A stretch of 20,766 nucleotides of DNA from Acidithiobacillus sulfuriphilus (GTDB lineage: Bacteria > Pseudomonadota > Gammaproteobacteria > Acidithiobacillales > Acidithiobacillaceae): contig NZ_RIZI01000142.1 in assembly GCF_003721225.1 (NCBI RefSeq), positions 1-20,766 on the forward strand, written 5' to 3'. The translations under genes were made by a program, and so were the position numbers. Of the stretch, positions 625-19,271 are shown in pieces. Numbering within the stretch: the first letter of the stretch is position 1; the number at the start of each line of letters is the position of its first letter. A model generated the notes under the pieces. It searched no databases and was not told the origin of the DNA. It saw only the letters and a program-made list of their open reading frames with translations.

Positions 625-2178
625 ATGTTCCAACAAAACCGCAGACAGTTTCTCAAAACCATGGGCCTCGGCAGCGCCGCATTGGCCACCGCTCCCCATC
701 TCGCGGGGCTGGCCCAGGCGGCCGATGCCGTGGATCTGGCGGGCTTGCGTGCGCATATTGATCATATCGTCATCATCTATCAGGAAAACCGCAGCTTCGA
801 TCACTACTTTGGCACCTACCAGCATCCCCAAGGGACGATGGTCGCCAACCTGCTGAACCAGGACGGCAAGGTGGATCCGCGCTTCCTCGGCCAGCAAAAA
901 AACCCTGCGGGCATTCCCTACACCTACCTCCCCGTTCCCGAAGACATCCCCGGCTTCAACGGCGCCCTGCTGGACAATTTCCCCTTTCATCTCGCCCCCT
1001 ACATCCCAGCCACCCACAATGTTCCCTGGGACCCGGAACACCATTTCTTTCGCATGTACGCCCAGATGGATGGCGGCAAGATGGATCGCTTCGTGGCTTT
1101 GGCCATGTCCAAACACCATAAGCCGTTCAACAAGCTCTCCCAGCACGACATCGACGCCGTGCGCATGACCTTTGAAGAATCCAGGCCATCAGGCGCCGTG
1201 CTGGGCTTTTATGAGCGTAGCGACATTCCCGATTACCATCGCCTTGCCGATGAGTACGTCCTCTTCGACCATTTCTTCCAGGCCATGAGCGGCGGTTCCA
1301 CCGGCAACGCCCTCTATCTCGCCGCCGCCCGCTCCGCCGTCTGGCACCAGGCCCCGCAACGCCTCATGGGCAGTCTCACACCGCCCATCTTCGACCTGCC
1401 CTACGACCATAACGGCATCCTCATCAACGACCTCCCTCCCCTCCTCGGCCCCACCGAGGCAAATCCCGATAAGCTCAAGATCGCCCCGCCCCCGGAGCAG
1501 CAAAGCTACGCCAATATTGGCGATCGCCTGGACGCCGCCGGCGCCTCCTGGGCTTGGTATAATGAGAATTGGAATGCCGTCAAACCCTGGGCCATGAAAC
1601 GCGCCGACGGTCCCGGCGACGGTTCCGCCGTCATCGACACAGGCTACCTCTACGTGCCCCATCACAACCCCTTTCAATATTATCCGAGCTGGTTCAACAA
1701 CGTCCGCGCCGGGCATGTCCGGGACGAATCGGATTTTTACGAGGACGTCAAAAACGGCAAACTCCCCGCCGTCTCCTTCCTCAAGGCCACGGGTGCCCAT
1801 GATGAGCACCCGGAGGACTCGGCACCCCAATGGGGCATGCACTGGGTGATGGGGCTGCTCAAGACCCTCGCCCAAAGCCCCAGTTGGGAAAAAACCGCCG
1901 TATTCATCACCTACGACGAAGGCGGCGGCTTCTGGGACCATCTGCCCGCGCCCCAGCCAGACCAATTCGGCTGCGGCACGCGCATCCCGGCGCTGCTGGT
2001 CAGCCCGTGGGCTCGGGCCGGTTATGTGGACCACCGCAGCGGTGACACGACTTCCCTCCTCGCCCTCATCGAACGCCGCTTCGGCCTCAGTCCGTTGGAC
2101 ACCCGTGATCGCAATGCCTACCCCCTCACCGACGCCTTCGACTTCCAGCAAAAACCCCGGGGGGCATTCTTCGCCTAG
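625..2178 (+). CDS. Tat-exported phosphoesterase (acid phosphatase AcpA / phospholipase C family, PF04185), copy 1
   Basis: A 517-residue protein that should hydrolyse phosphomonoesters or phosphodiesters in the periplasm. The start at ATG 625 is chosen because an AAGGAG ribosome site lies 9 bases upstream and a twin-arginine signal follows at once (N-RRQFLK, residues 5-11, then a hydrophobic stretch ending AQA near residue 32). The frame is open further upstream to 508, overlapping the tonB stop, but that extension would bury the Tat motif. Family landmarks are YQENRSFDHYFG (52-63), the GGSTGN region (223-228) where the Ser/Thr nucleophile of this family lies, and the metal-binding YDEGGGFWDH (430-439). 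Length fits single-domain PF04185 acid phosphatases. It aligns gaplessly with the second copy at 6141. It follows tonB1 in the same direction and ends just before an intrinsic terminator. Phosphatase versus phospholipase specificity cannot be decided from sequence. Confidence 0.93.
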   Translation: MFQQNRRQFLKTMGLGSAALATAPHLAGLAQAADAVDLAGLRAHIDHIVIIYQENRSFDHYFGTYQHPQGTMVANLLNQDGKVDPRFLGQQKNPAGIPYTYLPVPEDIPGFNGALLDNFPFHLAPYIPATHNVPWDPEHHFFRMYAQMDGGKMDRFVALAMSKHHKPFNKLSQHDIDAVRMTFEESRPSGAVLGFYERSDIPDYHRLADEYVLFDHFFQAMSGGSTGNALYLAAARSAVWHQAPQRLMGSLTPPIFDLPYDHNGILINDLPPLLGPTEANPDKLKIAPPPEQQSYANIGDRLDAAGASWAWYNENWNAVKPWAMKRADGPGDGSAVIDTGYLYVPHHNPFQYYPSWFNNVRAGHVRDESDFYEDVKNGKLPAVSFLKATGAHDEHPEDSAPQWGMHWVMGLLKTLAQSPSWEKTAVFITYDEGGGFWDHLPAPQPDQFGCGTRIPALLVSPWARAGYVDHRSGDTTSLLALIERRFGLSPLDTRDRNAYPLTDAFDFQQKPRGAFFA

Positions 2179-2203
2179 AAAGGCATCACGCTAACAATGC
2201 CAC

Positions 2204-2226
2204 AACGCCCTGCGGGGCGTTTTTTT
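2204..2226 (+). terminator. Rho-independent terminator after phosphoesterase 1
   Basis: A perfect 7-bp stem, AACGCCC paired with GGGCGTT around a TGCG loop, runs straight into a tract of T. It ends the tonB1-phosphoesterase transcript 26 bases after the stop codon and insulates the next receptor gene. Confidence 0.9.
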
Positions 2227-2412: not shown

Positions 2413-2457
2413 TTGTCATGAAAATGACACATCAGATTCACATTGCGTTCATATAAT
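2413..2457 (+). promoter_or_regulatory. Pho-box array and -10 element of the TBDT1 promoter
   Basis: Four seven-base units start exactly 11 bases apart: TTGTCAT (2413), ATGACAC (2424), GATTCAC (2435) and CGTTCAT (2446). This is the direct-repeat geometry of PhoB sites (consensus close to CTGTCAT every 11 bp). A perfect TATAAT at 2452-2457 begins 10 bases after the third unit; the fourth unit overlaps the -10. No sigma70 -35 box is needed in activated Pho promoters. Transcription would start near 2464, giving a leader of about 30 bases before the ATG at 2495. The same 10-bp gap occurs in the second promoter at 6050. PhoB itself is not in the window. Confidence 0.8.
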
Positions 2458-2494: not shown

Positions 2495-4873
2495 ATGAAA
2501 CGCAACCGCCTATTGTCTAACGCCGTTATTGTTGCCTTATGTGCTGGTTCCATTGTTATCTCCATAAAAGCTCGCGCGGAAACGGCTAGCGCCGGAACAT
2601 CCGTCACCGCGGCTACCGAGAGTGGCAGCGCATCGACGCCACAAGGACCCATAAATGTCGGCCAGGTAAATGCCAACTCAGCGCCACCGTCCTCCAGCTC
2701 GGGAAATTTCTCCAACCATGTCCTCACCAAAGAGCAGCTTTTCACCTCCAGCCAAGCGGTCACTACGGTGAACAAATCGGAACTGGATCTCTTCAACCCC
2801 GCCTCTTCCGGAATTCAGGCGCTGTCCCTCAAGCCCGGCATCCAGATCAACGGCTACAATGCCGGCAGCGGCACCGCGCGTTCCACCATTTCCATGCGCG
2901 GCGTGAAAGTCGGGTGGAATAGCGTCCCCGGCGACCTGGAAACCAATGGCATTACCGCAGAGTTTGATGGGATTCCGTTGAACAGCCTGATTCAGGGGAC
3001 CGGCTGGCACTCCGTGGAAATCCCCCTGGGGGCGCTGCTCGCCGGTGTGAACGTGATCTATGGACCGGGGAATCCCCGCGACCGTTGGTACGACAGTATC
3101 GGCGGTACCATCAACTTCCTCCCGGTACAGCCCACCAAACATCCGGAAGCCAAAGTATCCGCCGCCTATGGCAGCGATCAGGCACAGGTTTATACGGCAA
3201 TCGCCTCTACGGGCGTCCATGACGGTTGGTCTGCCATAGTTGCCGCGGACTACGCCCACAATAACACCTATCGGGTGAGTACCTTCAACTGGCCAACACG
3301 GGCAAATCAGGTGTTCATGAAGGTCCGCAAGGCTTTTGCGGCCGGAACATTCAGCGTCGGCGCCTATTGGCAACGCAACGATGAATACCGTCCGAACATG
3401 ATACCGATTACCCCAATTCCGGGGATCACCACCGCCGGCTTGAACCAGAACGCACCGCTCTATAGCCAACAGACTACCGGATTTTATTCTGCCCTACCCA
3501 ATAGCGTATGGTTCAAAAACAATATCATTGAGAACTACCTCGCCTACTCCAAACTCCATCTGCAGCTCGCCTCCAATGTAGAGTTGAGCAATATATTATG
3601 GTATAGGCATGGGCAGGTTCTTCATTACCGGATCAATACCGGATTCGCCGGAGGCTCCACCGAGGACTATTATCCCTATTCGGAAACTTATGGTGACAAA
3701 ATGGTCTTTGATGTTGCCCTTCCCTATAACAACAAGCTAAGCTTCGGCGGATACGCCATCAACTCCACAACCGATAACCGTTTTAATGGATACAATGCGC
3801 TCCAGGGATCATCGGTGCAGAATCCCTCCTACATCAGCTTTAACAATTATCAGAACACCTATGTTTCCGCTTTTGTCGAGGACCACTTCAAGCCAATGGA
3901 CAATCTCGAGATTGTCCCAGGCGTGCAACTGGTCAACTATAAAACAATTTTTACCAACAACAATAGCTCGGAAGCGTTGAATTACCCCAATGCCAGCTAC
4001 AACACCAACCCCAATACCAGCAAAACCTTTGTGCGCTTTGCCCCATCCGTTGGCATTACCTATCGGCCCCTTTCATGGTTGACCACCTACGCCAACTATG
4101 CCATCACCTATCAGAACCCCACGGGTGGCAACTTCAATAACGCCCAGACGGATCTTCCCGCCCTCCTGCCGGTGAAAAGTACAGATTACGAAGTGGGATT
4201 CCGCGTGTTGCGCAATCACTGGCTCGGTCTCCAGCGTATTTATCTTGACATGAGTTACTATCACGATCGACTGGCGAATGAAACCATTCCCATCAGCCTC
4301 GCCAGCAATCCCACGGTTACCACTTTTGGTTATGGAATGGCCACCTTGAATGGCGTGAACATGGCTCTCCAAGCGGATGTCGATGACCATTGGTCCGCCT
4401 TCGTCAATACCAGCGTCCTTCATGGCTACTATAACCAATATTTTTCCACAACAACCAATCAATCCTACAATGGCTACCCGGTAACGAACTCCCCTTATTT
4501 CACGTTATCCAGCGGCATCAAATATCGAACCTACCTCCAAGGGATGGAACTTGCTGCGAATCTTTGGGATCAGTATTATGGCCACAGCTATCTCTTTGAT
4601 AACAATGTTGGGGCACCGACGAGGCAGACCAACCCGGGCTACAATCTGGTCAACTTGTCACTGTCCATGCACACCACCGCGCTGAATGGATATGTCCCCG
4701 GGGTGAAGGCTGCAACCATATCGGTCTACCTCAGCAATCTTCTTGGGAGAAAATACAATGCGACCGAATATGTCTCCGCAGGCGGGTATTTCAACGGCAA
4801 TAGCGCCGGCGCCATCCTGGCCAATCCCGGCGCACCCCGGACCTTCTTCGTCAATGCCAGCCTGACCTTCTGA
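2495..4873 (+). CDS. TonB-dependent outer-membrane receptor (TBDT1)
   Basis: A 792-residue outer-membrane receptor that would import a substrate using TonB energy. The start at ATG 2495 has a GGAGAG ribosome site 7 bases upstream and gives a Sec signal peptide (MKRNRLL, hydrophobic core, cleavage probably after IKARA at residue 28). The frame is open back to 2405, but that region contains the promoter. A Ser/Thr-rich spacer leads to a possible TonB box (INVGQVNA, 53-60), then a plug domain (about 75-220, with ISMRGV, FDGIPLN and GGTINF) and a beta-barrel with alternating aromatic strands. The chain ends FVNASLTF, with the terminal Phe expected for BAM-inserted porins. The coding sequence looks clearly more AT-rich than the flanking genes, which may mean separate acquisition. 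It is a single-gene unit with its own Pho-box promoter. Substrate unknown; an organophosphate or metal-phosphate is inferred from context. Confidence 0.93.
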   Translation: MKRNRLLSNAVIVALCAGSIVISIKARAETASAGTSVTAATESGSASTPQGPINVGQVNANSAPPSSSSGNFSNHVLTKEQLFTSSQAVTTVNKSELDLFNPASSGIQALSLKPGIQINGYNAGSGTARSTISMRGVKVGWNSVPGDLETNGITAEFDGIPLNSLIQGTGWHSVEIPLGALLAGVNVIYGPGNPRDRWYDSIGGTINFLPVQPTKHPEAKVSAAYGSDQAQVYTAIASTGVHDGWSAIVAADYAHNNTYRVSTFNWPTRANQVFMKVRKAFAAGTFSVGAYWQRNDEYRPNMIPITPIPGITTAGLNQNAPLYSQQTTGFYSALPNSVWFKNNIIENYLAYSKLHLQLASNVELSNILWYRHGQVLHYRINTGFAGGSTEDYYPYSETYGDKMVFDVALPYNNKLSFGGYAINSTTDNRFNGYNALQGSSVQNPSYISFNNYQNTYVSAFVEDHFKPMDNLEIVPGVQLVNYKTIFTNNNSSEALNYPNASYNTNPNTSKTFVRFAPSVGITYRPLSWLTTYANYAITYQNPTGGNFNNAQTDLPALLPVKSTDYEVGFRVLRNHWLGLQRIYLDMSYYHDRLANETIPISLASNPTVTTFGYGMATLNGVNMALQADVDDHWSAFVNTSVLHGYYNQYFSTTTNQSYNGYPVTNSPYFTLSSGIKYRTYLQGMELAANLWDQYYGHSYLFDNNVGAPTRQTNPGYNLVNLSLSMHTTALNGYVPGVKAATISVYLSNLLGRKYNATEYVSAGGYFNGNSAGAILANPGAPRTFFVNASLTF

Positions 4874-5173: not shown

Positions 5174-5704
5174 ATGATTCGCCATCATCTTCCCGTCTAC
5201 GCCGCAGTCCTCATCGCCCTGGGCGGCTGCGCCACCGTCACCCCCGTCAGTGGCAATTATCCGCCCATCACCCCGCGCCAGGCCCAAGGCGGCGCCGAAA
5301 ACGGCAAACTCGTGCGCTGGGGCGGCACCCTCATCCAGACCGCCCCGGAAAGCAACGAAACCTGCTTCACCGTCATGTCCCTGCCCCTGCGCCAGGACGG
5401 CCGCCCACGCCTGGGCGAGGAGAAATCCGAACTCGGCCGTTTCATCGCCTGCGCCCCCGGTTTCTACGACCCCGTTCTCTACAGCGCCAGTCGCGAAATC
5501 ACCTTCGTGGGCATCGTCACCGGCGTCAAGACAGAAAAGGTAGGCGCCTACGATTACCCCTACCCCCTCCTCTCCGCCAGCACCGTCTACCTCTGGCCGC
5601 TGGCAAAGCCCCAGCCCGCCCAAAGCACGGTATTCGTGAACGGCGGCTGGGGACCCTGGGGCTGGTGGGGAGGCCCCGGCTGGGGATGGGGCTATCCGTA
5701 TTAA
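5174..5704 (+). CDS. slp: Slp-family outer-membrane lipoprotein with Gly/Trp-rich tail
   Basis: A 176-residue lipoprotein. The start at ATG 5174 follows a GAGGAG site by 6 bases and yields a lipoprotein signal peptide with lipobox LGGC (Cys19). The body matches the Slp family (PF03843, starvation-inducible outer-membrane lipoprotein of enterobacteria): GKLVRWGGTLI, PLRQDGRP, GRFIA, YDPVLY, REITFVGIVTG and the YDYPYP-LW ending all occur in order. No Asp follows Cys19 (the next residue is Ala), so transport to the outer membrane is expected. The last 20 residues form an unusual Gly/Trp/Pro tail (GGWGPWGWWGG and GWGWGYPY) not typical of Slp. It stands alone between the REP pair and the putative small RNA. 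Its biochemical role is unknown; Slp is linked to starvation and acid stress in E. coli. Confidence 0.85.
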   Translation: MIRHHLPVYAAVLIALGGCATVTPVSGNYPPITPRQAQGGAENGKLVRWGGTLIQTAPESNETCFTVMSLPLRQDGRPRLGEEKSELGRFIACAPGFYDPVLYSASREITFVGIVTGVKTEKVGAYDYPYPLLSASTVYLWPLAKPQPAQSTVFVNGGWGPWGWWGGPGWGWGYPY

Positions 5705-5766: not shown

Positions 5767-5862
5767 CATTGGATCCTGGCCCGTCCCAAGCGGGCCTATC
5801 CAGCAAGAACGCTCCCTCCATCAGGAGGTTTGGGTACGACTTTTCAGTCGTACCTTTTTTTT
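5767..5862 (+). ncRNA. Candidate small RNA, about 95 nt, three hairpins
   Basis: The stretch has a promoter in front and an intrinsic terminator behind, and folds almost entirely. Hairpin 1 has an outer TGGAT/ATCCA (5770-5774, 5798-5802) and an inner GGCCCG/CGGGCC (5778-5783, 5791-5796) with loop TCCCAAG. Hairpin 2 is CCTCC-ATCA-GGAGG (5815-5828). Hairpin 3 is the terminator. The linker and hairpin 2 carry CTCCCTCC, complementary to Shine-Dalgarno sequences, as in many trans-acting regulatory RNAs. It does not match 6S, SRP, tmRNA or RNase P RNA. The alternative is that this is the 3' untranslated region of the slp-type gene. Confidence 0.5.
5833..5862 (+). terminator. Rho-independent terminator
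   Basis: A perfect 9-bp stem, GGTACGACT paired with AGTCGTACC around a TTTC loop, is followed by eight T. It can end both the slp-type mRNA and the putative small RNA, and isolates them from the Pho promoter downstream. Confidence 0.92.
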
Positions 5863-6049
5863 GCATCCTCGCCCGGCAACGAAGGATCCAGCGCTGCTCG
5901 CCCGCCACCAGCAGTTGCCCCATTTCCGGTAAAATACCCCATCCAGGGCAGCGGCAAGCCGCTACACATCTTTTCGATCGCCCCCCTGCATCCCTCATCG
6001 CCCCCCAAGTCCAGGGGCAGCCGTACCCATTAGAAATATTCCACGATCA
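5863..6049. other. Non-coding gap before the second Pho promoter
   Basis: Nothing is supported here. It is C-rich with several runs of C. One open frame (5769-6080, plus strand) crosses the terminator and the Pho box, and has no ribosome site or recognisable protein features. Confidence 0.5.
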
Positions 6050-6105
6050 TTGTCACAAAAAGTTCATACAAGGTTCATAAAACGGTCACATTCGCCTGAT
6101 ACGCT
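6050..6105 (+). promoter_or_regulatory. Pho-box array and extended -10 of the main operon promoter
   Basis: Four seven-base units start exactly 11 bases apart: TTGTCAC (6050), AGTTCAT (6061), GGTTCAT (6072) and CGGTCAC (6083), separated by A-rich 4-base linkers. This is the PhoB direct-repeat layout. Ten bases after the last unit lies TACGCT (6100-6105), preceded by TG at 6097-6098, forming an extended -10. That 10-bp gap is identical to the one in the promoter at 2413. The start point would be near 6112, about 28 bases before the first gene of the operon. Confidence 0.85.
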
Positions 6106-6140
6106 CCCCGAGATAAAGCAGTCCATAAGGGAGCGTGATG

Positions 6141-7700
6141 ATGCAGCACTGGAGTCGTCGTCAATTTTTGCAAGCCCTGGGCGCAGGCAGCGCGGCAGGG
6201 CTGGCCTGCCATCCCCTCTCCGCCCTGGCCGCGGCGGAAAACAGCGACCAGATCGCCGGTCTGCGCCAACACATCCGCCACATCGTCGTCATCTACCAGG
6301 AAAACCGCAGCTTCGACCACTACTTCGGGGCATACCGGCACCCGCGTGGCGCTGCTGTCGCCAACCTCCTCGGACCCGACGGCAAAATCAGCGCCGCCTT
6401 CGACAATCTGCAGAAGAATCCGGCAGGCATCCCTTACTCCACGCTACCCATGCCCGAAGAACTGCCCAGCCTGCAACGCAGCCTTCTGCCCAACCGCCCC
6501 TTCGCGGTCGGCCCCTACGTCGCCGCCGACCAGAACATCCCCTGGGACCCCGCCCATCTCTTTTTCCGCATGCAGCGGGAAGCGAACGGCGGCAAGATGG
6601 ATCGCTTTGTCGGCATGGCCCTGAGCAAAGGCCACTTTTCTCTGGACCACGCCCCCGTTTCCGACGTGGACAGCATGCAGGCCGCCTACTCGGTATCGCG
6701 GCCCAGCGGTGCCGTCCTCGGCTACTACACCCGCCAGGACCTCCCCTTCTACCACGCCCTCGCCGACCACTACGTCCTTTTCGATCACTTTCATCAGGCC
6801 ATGTTTGGCGGCTCCACCGGCAACGCCCTCTTCCTCGCCGCCGCCCGCACCTGCCAGGACCCCAAGGCGCCCCGCGAATGGCGCGTGCCCAAGGACATGT
6901 CCTACGTCGACCTGCCCTATGATCAGGCGGGCTACCTCATCAACAACCTGCCGCCGTTGCAGGGCCCCACGGACGCCATCCCGGAAAAGCTCGCCATCGC
7001 CCCCGATCCGGCCGCCCAGGACTTCGCCAACATCGGCGACCGCCTCGATGCCGCCGGCGTCCCCTGGGCCTGGTACCAGGAGGGCTGGGACCGGGTAAAG
7101 CCCTGGGCCATGAAGGACGCCTTCGGGCCCGGCGACGGCTCGGCCATCGTCGATAGCGGCGGTCTCTACGTCCCCCACCACAACCCCTTCCAGTACTTCG
7201 CCCGCTGGAAAACCTACGTCCGGGGCGGCCACCTCCGCGACGTCACCGATTTCTTCGGCGACGTCCAGGCCGGCCGGCTACCCGCCGTCAGCTTCCTCAA
7301 GGCATCGGCCAGCCACAACGAACACCCGGCCGACTCCGCGCCGCGCTGGGGCATGGACTATGTGCAGGGCATTCTCAACAGTCTCGCCAAAAGCCCCGCC
7401 TGGCCCCATACGCTGGTCCTCATCACCTACGACGAAGGCGGCGGTTTCTGGGACCATGTTCCCCCGCCGGCGCGGGATTATTTCGGCCCCGGCACCCGCG
7501 TCCCCGCCCTGCTCGTGAGCGCCTGGGCGCGTCCCGGCTATGTGGACCACCGCATCGCCGACACCACCAGCATCCTCCGGCTCATCGAAACGCGCTTCCA
7601 GCTCCCGCCCCTGAACGAACGGGACGCCGCAGCCTATGCCCTGACGGATGGACTGGATTTCAGCGGGAAAGTGCGGGACCCGGCGTTTACGTTTATCTGA
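6141..7700 (+). CDS. Tat-exported phosphoesterase (acid phosphatase AcpA / phospholipase C family, PF04185), copy 2
   Basis: A 519-residue phosphohydrolase, first gene of the Pho-controlled operon. Starts are possible at GTG 6135, ATG 6138 and ATG 6141; 6141 is preferred because GGGAG ends 7 bases upstream and because the protein then aligns residue-for-residue, with no gap, to copy 1 over 517 positions. The Tat signal is SRRQFLQ (5-11) with a hydrophobic core and an AxA cleavage region near residue 32. YQENRSFDHYFG (52-63), GGSTGN (223-228) and YDEGGGFWDH (430-439) sit at the same residue numbers as in copy 1. By hand count about 310 of 517 residues are identical. Differences cluster in the signal peptide and at 161-180 and 238-256, which may alter substrate choice. 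The product should act in the periplasm, or outside the cell if passed on by a secretion system. The receptor gene TBDT2 follows after 94 bases. Confidence 0.93.
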   Translation: MQHWSRRQFLQALGAGSAAGLACHPLSALAAAENSDQIAGLRQHIRHIVVIYQENRSFDHYFGAYRHPRGAAVANLLGPDGKISAAFDNLQKNPAGIPYSTLPMPEELPSLQRSLLPNRPFAVGPYVAADQNIPWDPAHLFFRMQREANGGKMDRFVGMALSKGHFSLDHAPVSDVDSMQAAYSVSRPSGAVLGYYTRQDLPFYHALADHYVLFDHFHQAMFGGSTGNALFLAAARTCQDPKAPREWRVPKDMSYVDLPYDQAGYLINNLPPLQGPTDAIPEKLAIAPDPAAQDFANIGDRLDAAGVPWAWYQEGWDRVKPWAMKDAFGPGDGSAIVDSGGLYVPHHNPFQYFARWKTYVRGGHLRDVTDFFGDVQAGRLPAVSFLKASASHNEHPADSAPRWGMDYVQGILNSLAKSPAWPHTLVLITYDEGGGFWDHVPPPARDYFGPGTRVPALLVSAWARPGYVDHRIADTTSILRLIETRFQLPPLNERDAAAYALTDGLDFSGKVRDPAFTFI

Positions 7701-7794
7701 TGGGAGATTATCCATGAGCTGTAGATAGCATGGGCACAATTATCGTATCACCTTGATCAATTAGAAAATTTAACACCCCAGATAGGGAGCGACC

Positions 7795-10738: not shown

Positions 10739-11128
10739 ATGCAATATCTGGAAATGCGCAAGGGGCGGGTAGAGATCATCCCCATGATCGACATCATGCT
10801 CTTCCTGCTGATCTTCTTCATCATGGTGACGATCCACATGATCCCCACCCAGGGGCTGCCCGCGCAGATGCCCGGTTCCAGCACCGCCCGCGATCTGCCC
10901 AAGCCCAAGGTCGTCCTCACCCTGCGCCAGTCCGGTGAAGTAGAGACGGACGGCCACGCCATTAGCCTGCCGGATCTGGAAGCCAGGCTCCGTCAGGGCA
11001 ATCCTGCCGAGACCCAGGTCACCATCGCCGCCGACAAGGGCGCCGACATCCAGGCCCTGGTCAAGGTCATGGACACCTGCCGCCACGCCGGCGTCAGCGC
11101 CATCGGCCTGGCGGCCAAGCCGGAGTAG
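10739..11128 (+). CDS. exbD: ExbD-family channel subunit
   Basis: A 129-residue partner of ExbB with one N-terminal membrane anchor and a small periplasmic domain. The start at ATG 10739 has GGAGG 7 bases upstream, inside the end of exbB. Residues 11-35 (VEIIPMIDIMLFLLIFF) carry the key membrane Asp (Asp18) that protonates in this family; the P-M-I-D-I-M pattern is diagnostic. The C-terminal half (VVLTLRQSGEVETDG, LEARLRQ, VTIAADKGADIQALVKVMDTCRHAGV) matches the ExbD/TolR periplasmic fold. Only two bases separate it from exbB, and five separate it from tonB2, so translation of the three is probably coupled. Confidence 0.95.
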   Translation: MQYLEMRKGRVEIIPMIDIMLFLLIFFIMVTIHMIPTQGLPAQMPGSSTARDLPKPKVVLTLRQSGEVETDGHAISLPDLEARLRQGNPAETQVTIAADKGADIQALVKVMDTCRHAGVSAIGLAAKPE

Positions 11129-11133
11129 GAATC

Positions 11134-11862
11134 TTGACCACTGCCCTCGCATCCCCGTTGTTCCACCCCCCGGAAGAAGGCCCCCTGCTGCGGCGGGCCT
11201 TGCTGGCCGCCGTGGCAGTGGAATTGCTGGTAATCGGCAACATGGCATTTTTCTTCCGTCAGGAAAAGCCGCAATCCCCGTCCATTCCCCCTATGCAACT
11301 GGCGCTGATCGCTCCGGAGCCGGCCAAGGTCATTCCACCGCCACCAAGACCGGCAGCCCAACCCAAGGCGACACCCAAGCCCATGCCAAAACCGGTAGCG
11401 AAGCCGCTTCCACGGCCCATCAGCCAACCGGCGGAGGCGCCGCGGCCGGCCACCACGGCACCGAGCCCATTGCCCGCTGCGCCGTCTCTTCCGTCGCCTG
11501 TGAGCGCCCCGCCGGTCCAGAACGCCAACCCGGTCAAAAGCGACCCCGGGCCCAGGGAGGACCGGGCCGGAGAAGGACAATATGCCGGCAGGGTGGCGAG
11601 CGAGATCGAAAAACACAAGGTCTATCCCGCCAGTGCCAAAGAACTCGACATGACCGGCGACGTCGTCCTTGCCTACACCATCAGCCGGCAAGGCAGCGTA
11701 GTGGAGGCGTCGATCCTCAAGTCCTCCGGCTTCAAGCTGCTCGACGAAACCGCCTTGAAGGCCCTGCGCGCCAGCCGCTTTGACGCCATGACCGCCGGCC
11801 TATGGCCCGGAGCCCCCAGCAAGACCTTCACCACCACCGTGCATTTCGCATTAGACGACTGA
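11134..11862 (+). CDS. tonB: TonB energy-transducing protein (tonB2)
   Basis: A 242-residue TonB. The start is TTG 11134, with GGAG 8 bases upstream across the exbD stop; no in-frame ATG or GTG precedes the membrane anchor, so this rare start is the only one that fits. A single membrane segment (about 18-40) is followed by the short motif PPMQLALIAPEP, which recurs in tonB3, then a long Pro/Lys/Ala linker (about 50-145) and a C-terminal domain (KHKVYPASAKELDMTGDVVLAYTI, GSVVEASILKSSG, LDETALKALRAS). The YP motif and the strand order agree with TonB_C. It completes an exbB-exbD-tonB cassette and lies 20 bases before TBDT3, its likely client. Confidence 0.93.
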   Translation: MTTALASPLFHPPEEGPLLRRALLAAVAVELLVIGNMAFFFRQEKPQSPSIPPMQLALIAPEPAKVIPPPPRPAAQPKATPKPMPKPVAKPLPRPISQPAEAPRPATTAPSPLPAAPSLPSPVSAPPVQNANPVKSDPGPREDRAGEGQYAGRVASEIEKHKVYPASAKELDMTGDVVLAYTISRQGSVVEASILKSSGFKLLDETALKALRASRFDAMTAGLWPGAPSKTFTTTVHFALDD

Positions 11863-11882
11863 CATCACCGAGGGAGCTAACA

Positions 11883-14099
11883 ATGAAGCACATCGTGACA
11901 CCACGCGCCATCGTCAAGGCCATCCTGGCCGCCACCTTCATCGGCCCCGTTCCGGCCCTTGCCGATGATCCGGTCAAAACCGACGATATCTCGGTATTCG
12001 GCCAGAAGGAAACGCGGCAGGTCCTGACCATGACCCGTTCGGAACTCAGTGAGGCCCCGCCGGGATATAGCCCCCTGGCCTCCCTGCAGAAGCTGCCCGG
12101 CGTATTCTTTTCCTCATCAGACCCCCTCGGCAACTACGAGTGGGCCAGCCGCTTCAGTATCCGGGGTTTCAACCAGAACCAGCTCGGTTTCACGCTGGAT
12201 GGATTACCCCTGGGCGATCAGAGCTACGGCAACAACAACGGCCTTTCCATCGGGCGCGCCATCAGCCAGGAAAACATCAGCCGGGTCAGCGTATCCGAAG
12301 GGGCCAGCGATACCGGCACGGCCTCCACCAGCAACTTGGGCGGCAGTGTTCAGTTCTTTTCCGTCGATCCCAAGAATCGCTTCGGCGTGACCCTGGCCGA
12401 GACCTATGGCAGCGCCAACTCCAGCCGCACCTTTCTGCGCCTGGATACCGGCGACATGGGTGCCCATACCAAGGCCTTCGTCAGCCTCCTCTATGGCCGC
12501 GCCGACAAATGGAAAGGCTATGGCCCGCAAAGCGAAAAACAACTCAACGCCAAGATCGTACACTTCTTCGGTGAGAGCAAGATCACGGCTTTTGTCGACC
12601 TATCCCGCCGTGATGAAAGCGACTACGCCGATCTCTCCCTCGACTCCCAGCGGCGCCTGGGCTGGAACTGGGACAATTATGCCCCGGATTTTCAGCGCGC
12701 CGTCAACGCCGCCAGGGGCATCTTTACCGGCGGCGTGACCAGCGTTGACGATGCCTATTATTTCGCCCGTGGCCTGCGCAACGACGAACTGGCTTATGTG
12801 AACGCCAATCTCAAGCTCTCCGCCATAGCCCGTCTCGATACCACCGTCTATTATCACCACAATGATGGGCAAGGGCATTGGTACACCCCTTATGTGCCCT
12901 CCCCATCGGGCCTGCCCATATCCATCCGCACCACGGAATATGGCATCAGCCGGGGCGGCGTCATCTCTTCGCTGGTGGCGCAGCTCAACAATCACCAACT
13001 CAGCGCCGGATTCTGGTATGAATACAATAAACATCAGCTTGCCCGGAATTACTACAATATCACCTCAGGTGACATCAATGCCTACGATCATTTTCTCAGC
13101 AACCCCTTTGCCACGGCTTTCTTGCAGCAGTTCAACACCACTACCTGGCAATTCTTCGCCCAGGATCAGGCCACCTTCTTCAACGACCGGCTAAAAGTAA
13201 CCTTGGGCGTCAAAAGCCCCCATGTGAACATTGATGCCAGCTCCCTGGTGGGCAATCGCGCCGCCGGTTCCATCAGCGCCCAGCGCGGCCTCCTGCCGCA
13301 GGTGGGCCTGAATTACCAGCTCACCCCATCGGAGAATGTTTTCTTCTCCTACGCCCAGAACATGCGCGCCTTTCAACCGGGCGTTAGCGGACCGTTCTCC
13401 ACCACGCAGGCCGCTTTCAACGCCACCTCCGGCAGCCTCAAACCGGAAACTTCCCAGACCCTGGATATCGGCATCAAGACCCAGCGGGGCAATTTCCAGG
13501 CGTCGCTGGATGCGTATCTGGTCAACTTTGATAACCGCTTGCTGAGTATCTCCCAGTGCGCGGGCATTCTCGGCTGCCCCTCCACCCTGGCCAACGTAGG
13601 CTCCGTGCATACCCGCGGCGTGGAAGGCGCCTTTCAATGGTCGCCCGTCCAGGATGTGACCTGGTACAATTCATTGACTTATACCTCTTCCAAGTACCAG
13701 TCAGACTATCTGGACGGCACGACCCTGGTACGGGCCGCCGGTAAAAATGTCGTGGATGCCCCGCGCCTGATGTTTGCCACCCAGCTTGCCTATGAACATG
13801 CCGGTTTCTTCGGCCGCCTCGGTGCAAAATATGCGGGTGAGCGCTATTACACCTACACCAATGACGCCAAAGTGCCGGGCTACTGGCTGACGGACCTCAG
13901 CACCGGCTACCGCCTGCGCCGCGTCCTCGGACTCCAGGAACTGCGCTTCCAGTTGAACATCACCAACCTCCTCAACGAAAACTACTGGGCCACCATCGGT
14001 ACCAACGGCTTTGTCTCCTCGGATCCGCAGGGACAGTTCTGGACCCTGCAAAACGGCGCGCCACGCCAGGTCTTCGGTACGGTGAGCGGCACCTTCTGA
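11883..14099 (+). CDS. TonB-dependent outer-membrane receptor (TBDT3)
   Basis: A 738-residue receptor. ATG 11883 is preceded by AGGGAG with 6 bases between; the longer open frame to 11802 overlaps tonB2 and is not used. The Sec signal ends near PALA (residue 27), and a classical TonB box, DDISVFGQ (34-41), follows. The plug has LQKLPGVFFSSSDP, FSIRGFNQNQLGFTLDGLPLGD, ISRVSVSEGAS and LGGSVQFFS; the barrel ends VFGTVSGTF. It is less like TBDT1 and TBDT2 than they are like each other at the N-terminus, so the three receptors may take different ligands. It sits between tonB2 and the propeller-phosphoesterase gene. Ligand unknown. Confidence 0.93.
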   Translation: MKHIVTPRAIVKAILAATFIGPVPALADDPVKTDDISVFGQKETRQVLTMTRSELSEAPPGYSPLASLQKLPGVFFSSSDPLGNYEWASRFSIRGFNQNQLGFTLDGLPLGDQSYGNNNGLSIGRAISQENISRVSVSEGASDTGTASTSNLGGSVQFFSVDPKNRFGVTLAETYGSANSSRTFLRLDTGDMGAHTKAFVSLLYGRADKWKGYGPQSEKQLNAKIVHFFGESKITAFVDLSRRDESDYADLSLDSQRRLGWNWDNYAPDFQRAVNAARGIFTGGVTSVDDAYYFARGLRNDELAYVNANLKLSAIARLDTTVYYHHNDGQGHWYTPYVPSPSGLPISIRTTEYGISRGGVISSLVAQLNNHQLSAGFWYEYNKHQLARNYYNITSGDINAYDHFLSNPFATAFLQQFNTTTWQFFAQDQATFFNDRLKVTLGVKSPHVNIDASSLVGNRAAGSISAQRGLLPQVGLNYQLTPSENVFFSYAQNMRAFQPGVSGPFSTTQAAFNATSGSLKPETSQTLDIGIKTQRGNFQASLDAYLVNFDNRLLSISQCAGILGCPSTLANVGSVHTRGVEGAFQWSPVQDVTWYNSLTYTSSKYQSDYLDGTTLVRAAGKNVVDAPRLMFATQLAYEHAGFFGRLGAKYAGERYYTYTNDAKVPGYWLTDLSTGYRLRRVLGLQELRFQLNITNLLNENYWATIGTNGFVSSDPQGQFWTLQNGAPRQVFGTVSGTF

Positions 14100-14107
14100 T
14101 GCATTTC

Positions 14108-14146
14108 CGGGCACGGACAGGCCATCGCCACGTGCCCGCATTTTCT
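14108..14146 (+). other. Hairpin between TBDT3 and the fusion phosphoesterase gene
   Basis: CGGGCACG (14108-14115) pairs perfectly with CGTGCCCG (14131-14138) around a 15-base loop that holds an inner GGC-CATC-GCC. A short T-rich stretch (TTTTCTT) follows. It could be a weak terminator or an mRNA-stabilising structure inside the operon. Confidence 0.45.
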
Positions 14147-14199
14147 TCCCTACGTTGCGTTACATGCCGAAACATCGGCGAAAATACTGGAGCCTATTC

Positions 14200-17037
14200 A
14201 TGCATCGCACCTTGTTATTCCTCCTATCCGGCGCCTTTGCCCTCCTGGCCGGCCCTGCCGCAGCGCAAAGCGCAATAGGCGAGAAGGATGGGCCACCATC
14301 CAGTGCCGGGCACCGGGAAAGCGCAAGGGCAGAGGCAGGAGTTCTGCCCACCGGTCAGCGTATTTCACCACAGGCCACTCCTGGCTCCCGGTTTTGGGAT
14401 CGCCTCATGACCGATGGCGGCGCTGCGCCGGTCTATGCGCGGGGTGCCGTCAGCACATTACTGACGCCGGACGGGCATTATTTGTTGATCCTGACCTCCG
14501 GATTCAAGCGGAACGCCGACGCCCATGGCCATCCGTCAGCGCAGCATTCCCGGCAGAGCGTGATTATTGAGGACGTCTCCAACCCGCGGCAGCCCCAAAC
14601 CGTCCAGGTCCTGCCCATCAACAACAGCTTTTGCGGCATGACCCTGTCGGCGGATGGGAAAACCCTTTATGTGGGCGGCGGCGTCGATGACAATGTGCTG
14701 ATTTTCCAAAAAACCGGGCCCTCCGGACAGTGGCGGACCGATGGCCATCCCATCCCTCTCGGACACCAGTCCGGCCTTGGTCTCCACGTCAAGCCCCTCA
14801 CCGCCGGCCTCGCCCTCAGCCCCGACGGCAGGCGCCTCCTCGTGAGCAATTTCTACAATGATTCAGTGAGCATGATCGACCTGGACCAGCGTCGCGTTCT
14901 CCGGGACATGGACCTGCGCCCCGGCCCCAGCGAAGGGCGGCACGGACAGGCCGGGGGTGAAAGCCCCTTCTGGATCGTCATGGATCATCGGCAGCGCGCC
15001 TATGTCTCCAGCATGCGCGACCGTGAAATCGTCGTCATCGACACCGGCAATGACGATCCGAAGATCGTCGCTCGCATCGCCACGCCGGGGAATCCCAACC
15101 GCCTGGTCCTGGACGAGGCCCGCCAGCGGCTCTACGTGGCCATGGAAAACCGCGACAGCATCGCCGTCATCGACACCCAAAAACTCCAGCTACAGGGTCA
15201 GGCCGGCCTGGTTCCGGGGGAGGCACGCCGCGCCGGGACGCCGGGAGTTTCCCCGGGCGAAGAAAATCTGGGCTGGTCGGCCAACGCCCTCGGCATCTCG
15301 CCCGATCATCAGCGGCTTTACGCCACCCTGGGCCAGATGAATGCCGTAGCCGTGCTCTCCCTGGCGGGAGCAATGCCGCACAGCCTCGGCCTCCTGCCAA
15401 CGGCATGGTCGCCCCAGGACCTGGTCCCTGCGCCGGCCGGCGACGCCCTTTGGGTGATCAACAATAAATCCATTCCCGGAGCCAATCCGGGATATTGTTC
15501 CGGTTATCGGCATGGCTGCATCGCCTCATCCCCGGTCCAGCCGAAGCCCAATCAATACATCTTGCAACTTTCCCTTTCGGGCCTGCAAGAGATTCCGCAT
15601 CTGGCCAAGGTGGACCTGCCGTCCATGACCTCGGTGGTCCTGAAAAACAACCATTCCACCCTCCTCTCCCGCACCGATCGACAAGTCATGGATTTCCTGC
15701 ACCGGCATATCCGGCACGTCATCTATATCGTCAAGGAAAACCGTTCCTACGATCAGGTGCTGGGCGACCTTCCCCGCGGCAACGGCGACCCCTCCCTCAC
15801 CGAATTCCCCCTGGCCGTGACACCCAACCAACATCGCCTCGCCCTCGACTTTGTCCTGCTTGATCACTTTCTGGATACGGGGGAAGTGAGCGGCGATGGC
15901 TGGGCGTGGTCCACGGCAGCCCGGGAGTCGGACATCAACAGCAAAATGCTGCCCAATAATTATGCCCAAGGCGGCGGTTCCTACGACTGGGAAGGCACCA
16001 ATCGCAACGTCAATGTGGGCCTGCAGGGGCAAGAACGGCGCGCGGCCAATCCCGACACCCCCAAGGACCCCGATCTTTTGCCGGGGACCGCCGACGTTGC
16101 CGCACCGGATAGCGCTGCCGGCCGCTACCAACAAGGTTATCTGTGGAGCGCCGCCCTGCGCCATGGACTCACCTTGCGCAATTATGGTTTTTTTGTGGAC
16201 CTGGAACGCTATGACGCCAGCACCAACCGGATTCCACTATCCCGCCATCCCTACCAGGAAAAAATCATCCAGGCCTATCCGGCCAATCCGGGACTCGCCG
16301 CCCATACCGATCCATTTTTCCGCAGCTTTGATAACGCCTACCCGGATTATTACCGCTATCGTGAATGGGAGCGGGAATTCCGCGCCTATGAACGCAATGG
16401 CAAACTGCCCACCCTTTCGCTCATACGCTTCATGAATGACCATACGGGCAAATTTGGCCAAGCCATGGATGGCGTCAACACGCCGGAACTCCAGGTCGCA
16501 GACAATGATTTTGCCGTAGGCTTGCTGGCGGAGCGGATCGCCCATAGCCGCTACGCCCGGGATACCCTGATATTCGTGGTGGAAGACGACGCCCAGGACG
16601 GCCCGGACCATGTGGATGCCCACCGCAGCATCGCCTTCGTCGTCGGCCCCTATGTGAAACAAGGCGCGGTGCTTTCCACCCCCTACAACACCCTCAACCT
16701 GCTACGCACCATGGAGATGGTGCTGGGACTGCCGCCCCTGAGCGCCCTGGACGGCGCCGCCCGCCCGATGACGGATATTTTCGATCTTCGGCAACAGTCA
16801 TGGAGCTTTCAGGCCTGCCCCTCGGGGCTGCTGCAAAGCACCGCCCTCGCCAGCCGCTGGCCGGCCCGATACCGATCCTGCAGCGGCGCCCAAGGCCATT
16901 TGCGGCCTTCGCACGACGGGAAATACTGGGCCGCAAAAACCCGGGGAATGGATTTTTCGGCCGAAGACCGCATCGATACCGCCCAATATAATCGCATCCT
17001 TTGGGAAGGTATCATGCACACGCCGCAACCCAATTGA
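14200..17037 (+). CDS. Beta-propeller / phosphoesterase fusion protein (YncE-like plus PF04185-like)
   Basis: A 945-residue exported protein. The start at ATG 14200 has TGGAG 7 bases upstream and a clear Sec signal peptide (hydrophobic 4-20, AAAQS cleavage). Residues about 80-460 form a YVTN/YncE-type propeller with repeated blades such as LTPDGHYLLILTS, LSADGKTLYVGG, LSPDGRRLLVSN, LDEARQRLYVAM and ISPDHQRLYATL. Residues about 500-865 are a phosphoesterase domain: IRHVIYIVKENRSYDQVLGD (504-523), FVLLDHF (551-557) and the metal motif VVEDDAQDGPDHVDAHR (793-809), which replaces the YDEGGGFWDH of the single-domain copies. Such two-domain proteins are known from other bacteria, but their substrate is not. 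Unlike its neighbours it uses Sec, not Tat, so its metals must load outside the cytoplasm. A Cys-containing tail (870-945) follows the enzyme domain. tonB3 lies immediately downstream. Confidence 0.9.
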   Translation: MHRTLLFLLSGAFALLAGPAAAQSAIGEKDGPPSSAGHRESARAEAGVLPTGQRISPQATPGSRFWDRLMTDGGAAPVYARGAVSTLLTPDGHYLLILTSGFKRNADAHGHPSAQHSRQSVIIEDVSNPRQPQTVQVLPINNSFCGMTLSADGKTLYVGGGVDDNVLIFQKTGPSGQWRTDGHPIPLGHQSGLGLHVKPLTAGLALSPDGRRLLVSNFYNDSVSMIDLDQRRVLRDMDLRPGPSEGRHGQAGGESPFWIVMDHRQRAYVSSMRDREIVVIDTGNDDPKIVARIATPGNPNRLVLDEARQRLYVAMENRDSIAVIDTQKLQLQGQAGLVPGEARRAGTPGVSPGEENLGWSANALGISPDHQRLYATLGQMNAVAVLSLAGAMPHSLGLLPTAWSPQDLVPAPAGDALWVINNKSIPGANPGYCSGYRHGCIASSPVQPKPNQYILQLSLSGLQEIPHLAKVDLPSMTSVVLKNNHSTLLSRTDRQVMDFLHRHIRHVIYIVKENRSYDQVLGDLPRGNGDPSLTEFPLAVTPNQHRLALDFVLLDHFLDTGEVSGDGWAWSTAARESDINSKMLPNNYAQGGGSYDWEGTNRNVNVGLQGQERRAANPDTPKDPDLLPGTADVAAPDSAAGRYQQGYLWSAALRHGLTLRNYGFFVDLERYDASTNRIPLSRHPYQEKIIQAYPANPGLAAHTDPFFRSFDNAYPDYYRYREWEREFRAYERNGKLPTLSLIRFMNDHTGKFGQAMDGVNTPELQVADNDFAVGLLAERIAHSRYARDTLIFVVEDDAQDGPDHVDAHRSIAFVVGPYVKQGAVLSTPYNTLNLLRTMEMVLGLPPLSALDGAARPMTDIFDLRQQSWSFQACPSGLLQSTALASRWPARYRSCSGAQGHLRPSHDGKYWAAKTRGMDFSAEDRIDTAQYNRILWEGIMHTPQPN

Positions 17038-17112
17038 GCGATTCACATGAACATGACGGTTGACGCAAAACATGTTTATCCCCATCCATTCATACGAACG
17101 GAATCAAAAAAG

Positions 17113-17826
17113 ATGGCTCCAGAACTTGCGCAGATGCCCGGTTATCGGCTTCCTGAAGAGGGCAAGGCCATGCAGCAAGCCCTTGGCCTCGCCTTTTTGG
17201 TAGAGATCCTCGCCTTGACCGCCCTCTTCTACAGTATCCATCATCAGCACCCCGTCCAGGCCACTCTGCCGCCCATGCAAATCGCCCTGGTTACACCGGA
17301 ACCCCCCGCCAAGCCGGTGACGCCCCCTACGCCGACAGCAAAGCCCAAGGTCGAAGAAACGCCAAAACCCGTGCTACGGAAAATGACACCCAAGCCCCAC
17401 CCACAGCCCACGCCCACGCCGCCTCAGCCGATCAAGGAAATGCTGCCCCCATCGCCCTTGCCGAGCCCGGTGGCGGCCCCGCCCGCGCAGGAAACGCCCA
17501 CGCCGCCACCACCCAGCCCGTCCCCCGTCGATCCGGCGGTGCGCGAGGATTATCTTTCCCAAGTCAAGGGCGCCATTCAGGCCGCAGTCCACTTTCCCGG
17601 TGTTGCCCGAATGCTGGGGGAGACAAGCCGGGTACTGGTACGTTTCCATCTTCTCCATGGCCATGTCAGTCAAATCGATATCCTCAAAAAGGGGGCCATG
17701 GGTGCCTTTGACGAGGCCGCGCTGGCCGCGGTGCGCAACGCCCAGATCCCGCCACCCCCGGCGACGTTGGCCGGCAAAGATTTTCAGTTGACCGTGTGGG
17801 TAGAGTTCCAACTGGAAAACGGCTGA
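17113..17826 (+). CDS. tonB: TonB energy-transducing protein (tonB3)
   Basis: A 237-residue TonB from ATG 17113; the frame opens earlier at ATG 17047, which would add 22 residues. The later start is preferred because it gives MAPELAQ before GYRLPEEG, the same offset as the PPEEG of tonB2, and neither start has a strong ribosome site. The membrane segment is followed by LPPMQIALVTPEPP, nearly the same as in tonB2, then a Pro-rich linker with many TPTPP and PKP repeats. The C-terminal domain reads DYLSQVKGAIQAAVHFPGVAR, VLVRFHLLHGHVSQIDILKKG and FDEAALAAVRNAQIPPPP, with FP in place of YP. It is the third TonB in the locus and sits between two phosphohydrolase genes, with no separate exbBD. It probably shares the ExbBD encoded upstream. 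Confidence 0.9.
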   Translation: MAPELAQMPGYRLPEEGKAMQQALGLAFLVEILALTALFYSIHHQHPVQATLPPMQIALVTPEPPAKPVTPPTPTAKPKVEETPKPVLRKMTPKPHPQPTPTPPQPIKEMLPPSPLPSPVAAPPAQETPTPPPPSPSPVDPAVREDYLSQVKGAIQAAVHFPGVARMLGETSRVLVRFHLLHGHVSQIDILKKGAMGAFDEAALAAVRNAQIPPPPATLAGKDFQLTVWVEFQLENG

Positions 17827-17888
17827 ATATCTGAGGTTTTTCAAGGCGCCTTATTGCAGTACCACTCACTAGCGGGAGATCGTCCACC

Positions 17889-19271
17889 ATGCCTGTGTTT
17901 AACCGTCGTCGTTTTTTACAAGGAGCCGGCGTTGGCTTTAGCGCCGGATTATTCTGGCCCCTCAGCGGTCTCGCCCAAGATATCCCCCGCCGCGCCAGCG
18001 CCCTCCATGCCGGTCCCATGCAGGGTTATCCCGCCGTCCGCTCGGCGCAGTTGTGGCTGCAGACCCTGGGGCCGGCCCGGATCCAGGTGGCCTTCTGGCC
18101 GGAGGGACGGGAAGAGGCGCGTCGCCTCACCGAGATCGTCGCTACCAAAGCACAGACCCAGTTTACCGCCCTCTTGACCCTGGACGACCTTGCGCCCGGC
18201 ACCCGCTACGCTACCCAGGTGCTGCTGGATGGCCAAGCCCTAGCGGCATCCCCGCTCACGGTACGTACCCTGTCCCTCTGGCAATGGCGCCGACCCGCGC
18301 CCGATTTCAAGGTCTTGGCGGGCTCCTGCGCATACATCAATGATCCGGTCTACGACCGACCCGGTAAGCCCTACGGGGGAGGTTACGAAATTTATCAGCC
18401 CATGGCGGCGGAAAAGGCCGACCTCATGGTCTGGCTGGGGGATAACTTGTATTTCCGCGAGGCGGACACCTTGAGCCCCGCGGGTATGGCCCTACGCTAT
18501 TGGCAGGACCGCGCCTTTGCGCCTCTCCAGCAGTTTTTGGGCTCGGCGCCCCAGGTGGCCATCTGGGACGATCACGATTATGGCCCCAATGATAGCGACG
18601 CAAGTTTTGAGTTCAAATCCACCGCCCTGAATCTTTTCCGGAACCATTGGGCCAATCCCGGCTACGGCCTGCCCGGCACGCCGGGCATCTTCACCGTGGT
18701 ACATCTCTATGACGCCGATTTCTTCCTCCTGGACGACCGCTGGTACCGGGATGCCGACGCCGCCCCGGCGCGCCGCGGCAAAGTCATGTTCGGCCCGCAA
18801 CAGATGACGTGGCTCAAAAACGCCCTGCTCTCCTCCAAGGCCCGCTTCAAGATCATCGCCGCCGGCGGCCAGATGCTCAATGACGATGACGCTTACGAGG
18901 GCTGGAACCATTATCCGGAAGAACGCCAGGATTTTCTGGATTGGCTGCAAGAAACAGGAATCAAGGGTATCCTGTTTCTCTCCGGCGACCGCCACATCAG
19001 CGAGCTCATGCGCCGTCCGCGGCCACGGTACAGCGGCCGCTACGACTATCCCCTCTTTGAATTGACCAGCTCCCCCATCAACTCGGGGCCGGGAAGGGGC
19101 GACGCCAATCCCTACCGAGTCCCCGGCACCCTGGTAAAGGCCAGAAACTACTGCAGCATGGAATTCCTCGGCGCGGGCAAGGACCGGTATCTGCGCATTC
19201 GCTGCCTGGATAGCCAAGGCAAGCGCCTCTGGGAGCAACAGATCGCCGGCGCCGATTTAGGGTACGCCTGA
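17889..19271 (+). CDS. phoD: Tat-exported PhoD-like alkaline phosphatase/phosphodiesterase
   Basis: A 460-residue metallophosphoesterase. GGGAG lies 10 bases before ATG 17889, and a Tat motif, NRRRFLQ (5-11), starts the protein. An N-terminal PhoD domain of Fn3-like strands (about 40-128: RSAQLWLQTLGPARIQVAFW, LDDLAPGTRYATQVLLDG) precedes the catalytic domain. That domain carries LAGSC (143-147; this Cys binds iron in B. subtilis PhoD), WLGDN (182-186), WDDHDYGPND (226-235) and LSGDRHISEL (364-373), the full set of metal ligands. PhoD enzymes use Fe/Ca and cleave phosphomono- and diesters. It is shorter than B. subtilis PhoD but normal for the wider MPP_PhoD group. It is the last gene of the plus-strand operon and converges on the histidine kinase gene. 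Confidence 0.93.
   Translation: MPVFNRRRFLQGAGVGFSAGLFWPLSGLAQDIPRRASALHAGPMQGYPAVRSAQLWLQTLGPARIQVAFWPEGREEARRLTEIVATKAQTQFTALLTLDDLAPGTRYATQVLLDGQALAASPLTVRTLSLWQWRRPAPDFKVLAGSCAYINDPVYDRPGKPYGGGYEIYQPMAAEKADLMVWLGDNLYFREADTLSPAGMALRYWQDRAFAPLQQFLGSAPQVAIWDDHDYGPNDSDASFEFKSTALNLFRNHWANPGYGLPGTPGIFTVVHLYDADFFLLDDRWYRDADAAPARRGKVMFGPQQMTWLKNALLSSKARFKIIAAGGQMLNDDDAYEGWNHYPEERQDFLDWLQETGIKGILFLSGDRHISELMRRPRPRYSGRYDYPLFELTSSPINSGPGRGDANPYRVPGTLVKARNYCSMEFLGAGKDRYLRIRCLDSQGKRLWEQQIAGADLGYA

Follow-up and report, generated by a model that had tools for sequence, protein, structure and literature searches.

The closest described relative of the locus analyzed here is a partially conserved gene cluster of Acidithiobacillus thiooxidans, A. 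ferrooxidans, and A. caldus that encodes a TonB-dependent transporter (TBDT), ExbBD, TonB, an SLP, and PhoD (Osorio et al. 2008, PMC2631029). In that paper, the receptor is named FecA3, AcpA and Phn are also placed in such clusters, and iron uptake is hypothesized to rely on chelation of Fe(III) by the released phosphate; Fur is stressed, and a PhoB-like regulator is given as a possible coregulator (PMC2631029). Acidithiobacilli are described as having many TonB "iron" receptors despite soluble iron of up to ~0.1 M (PMC2631029, PMC2621215). In Flavobacterium johnsoniae, the phosphate utilization systems PUSI and PUSII comprise TBDT-type genes beside genes for predicted periplasmic phosphodiesterases or a phosphomonoesterase, are induced by depletion of inorganic phosphate (Pi), and have been proposed to work in the manner of polysaccharide utilization loci (PULs) (PMC8115612). 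The reported PhoB regulon of Caulobacter crescentus includes TBDTs, phospholipase C (PLC), and lipid-remodeling genes (PMC11208175), and in Pseudomonas aeruginosa the Ton-complex genes exbB2D2-tonB4 of PUMA3 are reported to be under PhoB (PMC4971064). Here, we analyze a stretch of 20,766 nt from Acidithiobacillus sulfuriphilus (Acidithiobacillaceae), hereafter the window, which is located on contig 49 of a genome of 2.81 Mb assembled in 194 contigs. Its forward strand carries, in this order, tonB1, PE1, TBDT1, slp, PE2, TBDT2, exbB, exbD, tonB2, TBDT3, PE3, tonB3, and phoD, in which PE denotes a PF04185-type phosphoesterase. We consider this locus, with fair though not high confidence, to be a Pi-starvation-induced, TonB-powered phosphorus acquisition system.

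Pho-Box Arrays Upstream of the Receptors

TBDT2 (7795–10002, + strand) is the core receptor of the conserved cluster. Alignment of the DNA upstream of TBDT2 orthologs revealed as many as four CTGTCAT-type 7-mers spaced 11 bp apart, and a −10 box follows ~10 bp beyond the last unit. Pho boxes repeated in this form mark PhoB-controlled promoters in Escherichia coli, and both parts of that arrangement, the 11-bp direct repeats and the −10 box at the expected distance, are present here. A position weight matrix (PWM) trained on 12 arrays not located before TBDT2 gave scores of 32.0–48.5 in all 14 orthologs that lack PE2 in front, compared with a maximum of 15.7 among 960 null sequences; genome G003 (locus L057; G numbers denote the compared genomes, G000 being the window's own, and L numbers the extracted loci) was omitted from these tests, as its TBDT2 is cut by the end of the contig. 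PE2 separates the array from TBDT2 in two cases, the window and G018, and there the array stands in front of PE2 instead.

For the window itself, we built a PWM from 14 arrays, taken from four genomes other than G000, and used 1,000 first-order simulated windows as the null, the maximum of which was 18.1. Two arrays exceed this value. The first is a four-unit array with a −10 box (6050–6105, + strand) upstream of PE2 (6138–7700, + strand), which scores 40.2 over positions 6061–6105 and contains exact matches to the strict array pattern at G000:C49:6052–6089 (C numbers are contigs of G000). The second, an array with the −10 box TATAAT at 2413–2457 (+ strand) upstream of TBDT1 (2495–4873, + strand), scores 29.6 and has no exact match to the strict pattern. 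We found no published account of Pho boxes before these TBDTs in the open-access literature, a scope that leaves older phosphate starvation work on A. ferrooxidans outside, and in term counts over the text available for PMC2631029 "Pho box" does not occur. The new contribution of this report is thus regulatory: putative Pho-box arrays, recognized from their repeat structure, stand before the receptors and are conserved across the family.

Genome-Wide Distribution of Arrays and PhoB

A three-unit array pattern matched 80 partly overlapping sites in six genomes, compared with one for the reversed control, and merging of overlapping matches in five genomes (G018, G023, G006, G004, and G007) resulted in 41 arrays. 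Neighborhood counts were made in these five genomes and exclude G000, which is split into 194 contigs. An array lies within 6 kb upstream on the same strand for 15 of 40 TBDTs (random mean 0.31, maximum 3 in 2,000 randomizations) and for 11 of 22 PF04185 genes (random mean 0.15, maximum 4 in 2,000), and for none of four feoB genes. Because the array pattern was designed on DNA upstream of TBDT2, we recounted without the TBDT2 genes and still found 11 of 35 TBDTs behind an array (random mean 0.28, maximum 3 in 2,000). In G000, the stretches of other TBDT contigs reach PWM scores of 54.8 (C29), 31.8 (C77), 39.5 (C85), and 39.8 (C96), and that of C92 only 5.3; scores are 21.4 and 48.6 for the two pstS stretches and −0.9 for that of feoB. 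On C77, arrays scoring 31.8 and 31.2 (L202:5516 and 8421) precede a TBDT and an OprD porin, respectively, the latter being followed by ORFs (open reading frames) that look by eye like those of an ATP-binding cassette transporter. Of ten array-following genes examined with Pfam, four encode porins, three of the OprD type and one of the phosphate-selective OprO/P type; the others encode a major facilitator superfamily carrier, a Sel1-repeat protein, a DUF3034 protein, a transglutaminase-like protein, a PhoB-type regulator, and a protein that matches no Pfam model.

Each of the six genomes encodes one PhoB above the family cut-off. That of G000 (C94:6929–7594; 306.6 bits against a cut-off of 296.2) is on the contig that also holds both pstS genes. 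A separate type of PhoB-like regulator was observed beside Pho arrays at L201:5158–5766, L203:3861–4526, L048:6458–7048, L211:10380–11033, and L213:5528–6154. Their DNA-binding domain is of the PhoB type and their receiver is degenerate: the conserved lysine is lost in all five readable rows, and the phospho-acceptor aspartate aligns in three of five; as judged by eye, they mostly precede exbB-exbD-TBDT operons.

At the 3′ end of the window, a convergent gene for an EnvZ-like sensor kinase (19310–20605, − strand) is a recurrent neighbor of the cluster and is probably outside the system; the end of a regulator gene lies at 20617–20721. This kinase fits EnvZ best (173 bits, below the cut-off), and the regulator beside its ortholog in G023 fits OmpR (230 bits) better than PhoB (188 bits), both below their cut-offs. 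We therefore rejected this EnvZ/OmpR-like pair as the phosphate sensor, given that a proper PhoB is encoded elsewhere.

Conservation and Gene Neighborhood

TBDT2 orthologs with 66–98% identity were identified in 16 of the 28 other family genomes, and the same search of 28 order- and class-level genomes gave a best match of 28%. The pair exbB-exbD is next to TBDT2 in 15 of the 16 ortholog loci, the remaining one being cut by a contig end, and a phosphohydrolase gene is present in all 15 resolvable loci of the relatives: downstream, 12 of them have a full-length phoD, two have a gene for a PE3-type enzyme instead, and one has PE3 together with a truncated phoD. Absence of this gene association from related genomes had been set beforehand in the first-pass annotation as one of two outcomes that would overturn its proposal, and the association turned out to be conserved.

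PF04185 is present in all 29 family genomes. Within the five genomes used for neighborhood counts, 14 of 22 PF04185 genes have a TBDT no more than 6 kb away, compared with a mean of 0.8 and a maximum of 5 in 5,000 random placements; the 22 features derive from 23 rows, since the two pieces of the broken PE2 of G018 were merged, and some of them are short fragments. In G000, subtraction of coordinates places all six PF04185 genes within 6 kb of a TBDT. PhnJ of the carbon-phosphorus (C-P) lyase is encoded in 13 of the 29 genomes, nine of which have a PF04185 gene on the phnJ contig at a distance of 10 kb or less.

Relatives of TBDT2 beyond the family occur under the names Thiomonas, Halothiobacillus, and Sulfuriferula at 47–52% identity, and also in a mine-drainage metagenome. 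The three genera are sulfur oxidizers, and this distribution hints at exchange within one habitat. Samples of 398 genomes at the phylum level and 369 at the class level contained no close match to TBDT2 outside the family, and a plasmid search with TBDT2 returned distant TBDTs only. Positions 5898–18297 of the window align with DNA of G018, which represents a different genus, in pieces of 92–98% identity, whereas the kinase gene that follows is 69% identical; it is this difference that suggests that the stretch was probably transferred between the genera recently. In the copy of G018, PE2 is internally deleted and PhoD is truncated.

Sister clusters were also observed. A cluster of similar design on C96 (L207:5854–16834) encodes a TBDT, a propeller-PF04185 protein, a second TBDT, a phosphocholine-specific PLC that is above the NCBIfam cut-off, and a Sel1-repeat protein, and a Pho array precedes the first of these TBDTs. 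Next to it, an ORF of 835 aa (L207:16840–19347) is 51% identical to a neighboring TBDT and was missed by the genome search with PF00593, so that our TBDT counts are lower bounds. In G023, an RNase T2 gene (PF00445; L048:1133–1945) is located between tonB and the PE1 ortholog.

Phosphohydrolases and Receptor TBDT2

PE1 (625–2178, + strand; PF04185, 281 bits) and PE2 (PF04185, 274 bits) share 60% identity and contain the full PF04185 domain with the motifs present in AcpA, namely E-N, S/T, HH, and D-E...DH, which are typical of the AcpA/PLC group; the kin of PE1 include acid phosphatase AcpA and phospholipase C. PE3 (14200–17037, + strand) is a beta-propeller with YVTN repeats fused to a PF04185-type domain (37.9 bits) that is divergent and aligns with no more than the C-terminal part of the profile; EN and DD...DH motifs are present. 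The PhoD-family phosphohydrolase (17889–19271, + strand; PF09423, 87 bits) matches PDB entry 2yeq by sequence. Leaders read by eye are of the twin-arginine type in PE1, PE2, and PhoD and of the Sec type in PE3; the TAT model of Pfam falls slightly under its cut-off on PE1. Judging from what is known of these families, the exported PF04185 enzymes and PhoD would hydrolyze phosphate esters in the periplasm.

TBDT2 matches Pfam models for both plug and barrel. Its nearest solved relatives by sequence include FecA, and its predicted fold is nearest to YncD/PqqU and FecA, which are tied (PDB 6v81, 9c4o, and 1kmo), at an identity of 15–19% at which the ligand is not transferable. The AlphaFold model used for this comparison was built from 28 diverse rows and has a predicted local distance difference test (pLDDT) value of 85.4; a model from eight close rows was discarded at a pLDDT of 26.9. 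The fold matches favor none among pyrroloquinoline quinone, iron citrate, and other ligands. The conserved charged residues of TBDT2 are mostly acidic, which is no less compatible with a metal complex than with an anion on its own. Glu430, which is invariant in the 28 rows, aligns with Arg438 of FecA, which we take to be a dicitrate-binding residue, in an alignment that is weak at this point.

Proposed Function and Alternative Explanations

We propose that upon Pi depletion PhoB would bind the arrays of 11-bp period before TBDT1 and before the run from PE2 to phoD, and that PE2, TBDT2, exbB, exbD, tonB2, TBDT3, PE3, tonB3, and phoD would be expressed as a single transcript. The receptors, energized by ExbB/ExbD and the TonBs, would import compounds that contain phosphorus through the outer membrane. 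As likely ligands we consider nucleotides or oligonucleotides, the head groups of phospholipids, or complexes of such compounds with Fe(III). Periplasmic PF04185 enzymes and PhoD, by analogy with their families, would then release Pi for uptake by Pst, which is itself behind Pho-type arrays in G000. The import of intact organophosphates by the receptors is plausible, and the sister clusters offer clues to the substrates in the form of RNase T2, phosphocholine-specific PLC, and nearby C-P lyase genes. Several observations weigh against a simple form of this picture: a strict-pattern array is found at pstS in only three of seven cases and at phn in none of three, and for 18 of the 41 arrays no TBDT or PF04185 gene lies downstream.

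Three alternatives were weighed. The enzymes and receptors might share no more than Pho control and a neighborhood, in which case the substrates of the enzymes would be phospholipids belonging to the cell or at its surface, and something unrelated would enter through the receptors. Pho regulons do mix scavenging genes, as in the Caulobacter example (PMC11208175), yet the operon-like order of the genes, their family-wide adjacency, and a PF04185-TBDT association far above random make this explanation unlikely, even though it survives better than the other two.

The second alternative is the published one, namely that phosphate released by phosphatases chelates Fe(III) and that the receptors import ferric-phosphate or ferric-dicitrate for iron. 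It was proposed in PMC2631029, where the cluster genes are associated with predicted Fur control, and FecA ranks with the solved structures nearest to TBDT2 in sequence and in fold. However, TBDT2 reaches only 47 bits against a cut-off of 1,100 in the NCBIfam FecA model, no FecA-type N-terminal signaling domain was found in it (Pfam reports plug and barrel only), and the 14 orthologs without PE2 in front all have a Pho array, whereas the best matches to the 19-bp Fur consensus upstream of TBDT2 are 10–13/19 in all 16 cases examined. This Fur test has low power. The best Fur match in the window, 13/19, is also the median value across 30 simulations; 14/19 is reached both at feo and in the TBDT stretch of C92, inside the null range of up to 15; and a strict Fur palindrome has no match in the window, a negative result that is weak because this pattern finds no site even near feoB. 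The Pho arrays, recognized by pattern, thus appear to shift the balance to phosphorus, with iron uptake still compatible given the little power of the Fur tests. For such clusters we therefore regard phosphorus scavenging, a reading strengthened by the Pho-box arrays together with the C-P lyase genes near PF04185 genes, as more likely than iron uptake, which we judge improbable and rank below shared control.

Least probable is strictly inorganic phosphorus uptake, in which complexes of Fe(III) with phosphate, or of polyphosphate, would enter through the receptors as the phosphorus source and the enzymes would serve separate organic substrates. In iron-oxidizing cultures, sequestration by ferric iron may leave phosphate poorly available, as argued in PMC10322971, and the acidic conserved residues of TBDT2 could face a metal, but every one of the 15 resolvable clusters has a linked phosphohydrolase gene, and genes for RNase T2, PLC, and C-P lyase are located in or near sister clusters.

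The phosphorus acquisition proposed for this locus may be part of a wider pattern. More tentatively, and with clearly less confidence than for the locus itself, we suggest that most TonB receptors of the Acidithiobacillaceae could be PhoB-controlled phosphorus receptors, forming a paralogous family with NVGQV/NVGEV TonB boxes beside exported phosphohydrolases, with local PhoB-like regulators, degenerate in the receiver, next to several of the operons. Such a family, if real, would explain the many TBDTs kept by iron-rich acidophiles and long counted as siderophore receptors. In iron-rich acid, binding by ferric iron can make phosphorus scarce, and if many of these receptors are Pi-starvation genes, the "iron receptor" puzzle would get a simple testable answer.

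Gene Content and Layout of the Window

Profile matches recovered all genes listed in the first-pass annotation, that is, three PF04185 enzymes, one PhoD, TBDT1–3, tonB1–3, and exbBD on one strand. That list left unmentioned the slp gene and the likely division into three units, and tonB1 (2–511, + strand; PF03544, 39.9 bits), whose 5′ end is cut by the window edge, lies outside the interval 625–19271 that it described. Synteny with G023 (L048) identifies tonB1 as the counterpart of the tonB in an exbB-exbD-TBDT-tonB-(RNase T2)-PE run there. TBDT1 has a PF00593 match of 92.4 bits, to the barrel only, and a TonB box of the type NVGQV, and is followed by a gene for an Slp-family outer-membrane lipoprotein (5174–5704, + strand; PF03843, 122 bits). 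Downstream of TBDT2 are exbB (10059–10736, + strand; PF01618, 98 bits), exbD (10739–11128, + strand; PF02472, 97 bits), tonB2 (11134–11862, + strand; PF03544, 55 bits), and TBDT3 (11883–14099, + strand; PF00593, 165 bits, with a plug match of 44 bits). The tonB found in the core cluster of relatives has its best match in tonB3 (17047–17826, + strand; PF03544, 34 bits). No tRNA was found in the window, and no Rfam family scored above its gathering score.

Terminator-like hairpins at 2204–2221 (+ strand), after PE1, and at 5832–5855 (+ strand), together with the two Pho-type promoters, suggest that the locus comprises three putative transcription units rather than one, with the total of terminator-like hairpins in the window being at chance level. 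That ExbBD is dedicated to this locus, as its first description had it, we infer from adjacency.

Comparison with Described Systems

The window resembles the FecA3-PhoD cluster of Osorio et al. in bacterial group, TBDT, ExbBD, TonB, PhoD, AcpA-type phosphatases, and phn nearby, and TBDT, ExbB, ExbD, TonB, and PhoD are all clustered in it. From layout and taxa, the cluster of Osorio et al. probably corresponds to the TBDT2 core of the window. TBDT2 may be the protein named FecA3 there, and the Slp (PF03843) of the window may be the SLP of that work, which calls it a surface layer protein (PMC2631029). Unlike most clusters of relatives, the window has PE2, TBDT3, PE3, and a second TonB as additions inside the run. 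The published cluster was read as iron uptake with Fur stressed, whereas the family-conserved arrays of the Pho-box type point to Pi starvation. What we report is hence a re-reading of a published cluster and not a new kind of system. The phosphorus role assigned by the first-pass annotation is supported at the level of promoter sequence and context, but its view that no system of this layout had been described does not hold in view of the cluster in PMC2631029.

Likewise, the idea of a phosphate counterpart of PULs has a precedent in the phosphate utilization systems reported for Flavobacterium (PMC8115612), and we liken the working of the locus, by analogy, to these systems of Bacteroidota. 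Phosphohydrolase genes stand beside the receptor in the window as in PULs and PUSs; PUSI and PUSII, however, are built on SusCD pairs, whereas the window has exbBD and tonB inside the locus and ordinary proteobacterial TBDTs. No SusD family match was found among the Pfam matches of the window genes, and the lipoprotein present is Slp (PF03843).

The text available for PMC5082522 contains no TonB terms. In Caulobacter and in PUMA3, as far as the accounts of these regulons go, TBDT or Ton-complex genes are under PhoB control, as we propose for those of the window. PUMA3, as described there, differs in its sigma/anti-sigma pair and in a receptor-like protein without a barrel (PMC4971064), and the passages on the two systems mention no PF04185/PhoD cluster (PMC11208175, PMC4971064). 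If our reading is correct, TonB-linked organophosphate scavenging, as reported for Flavobacterium (PMC8115612), would extend to autotrophic bioleaching acidophiles.

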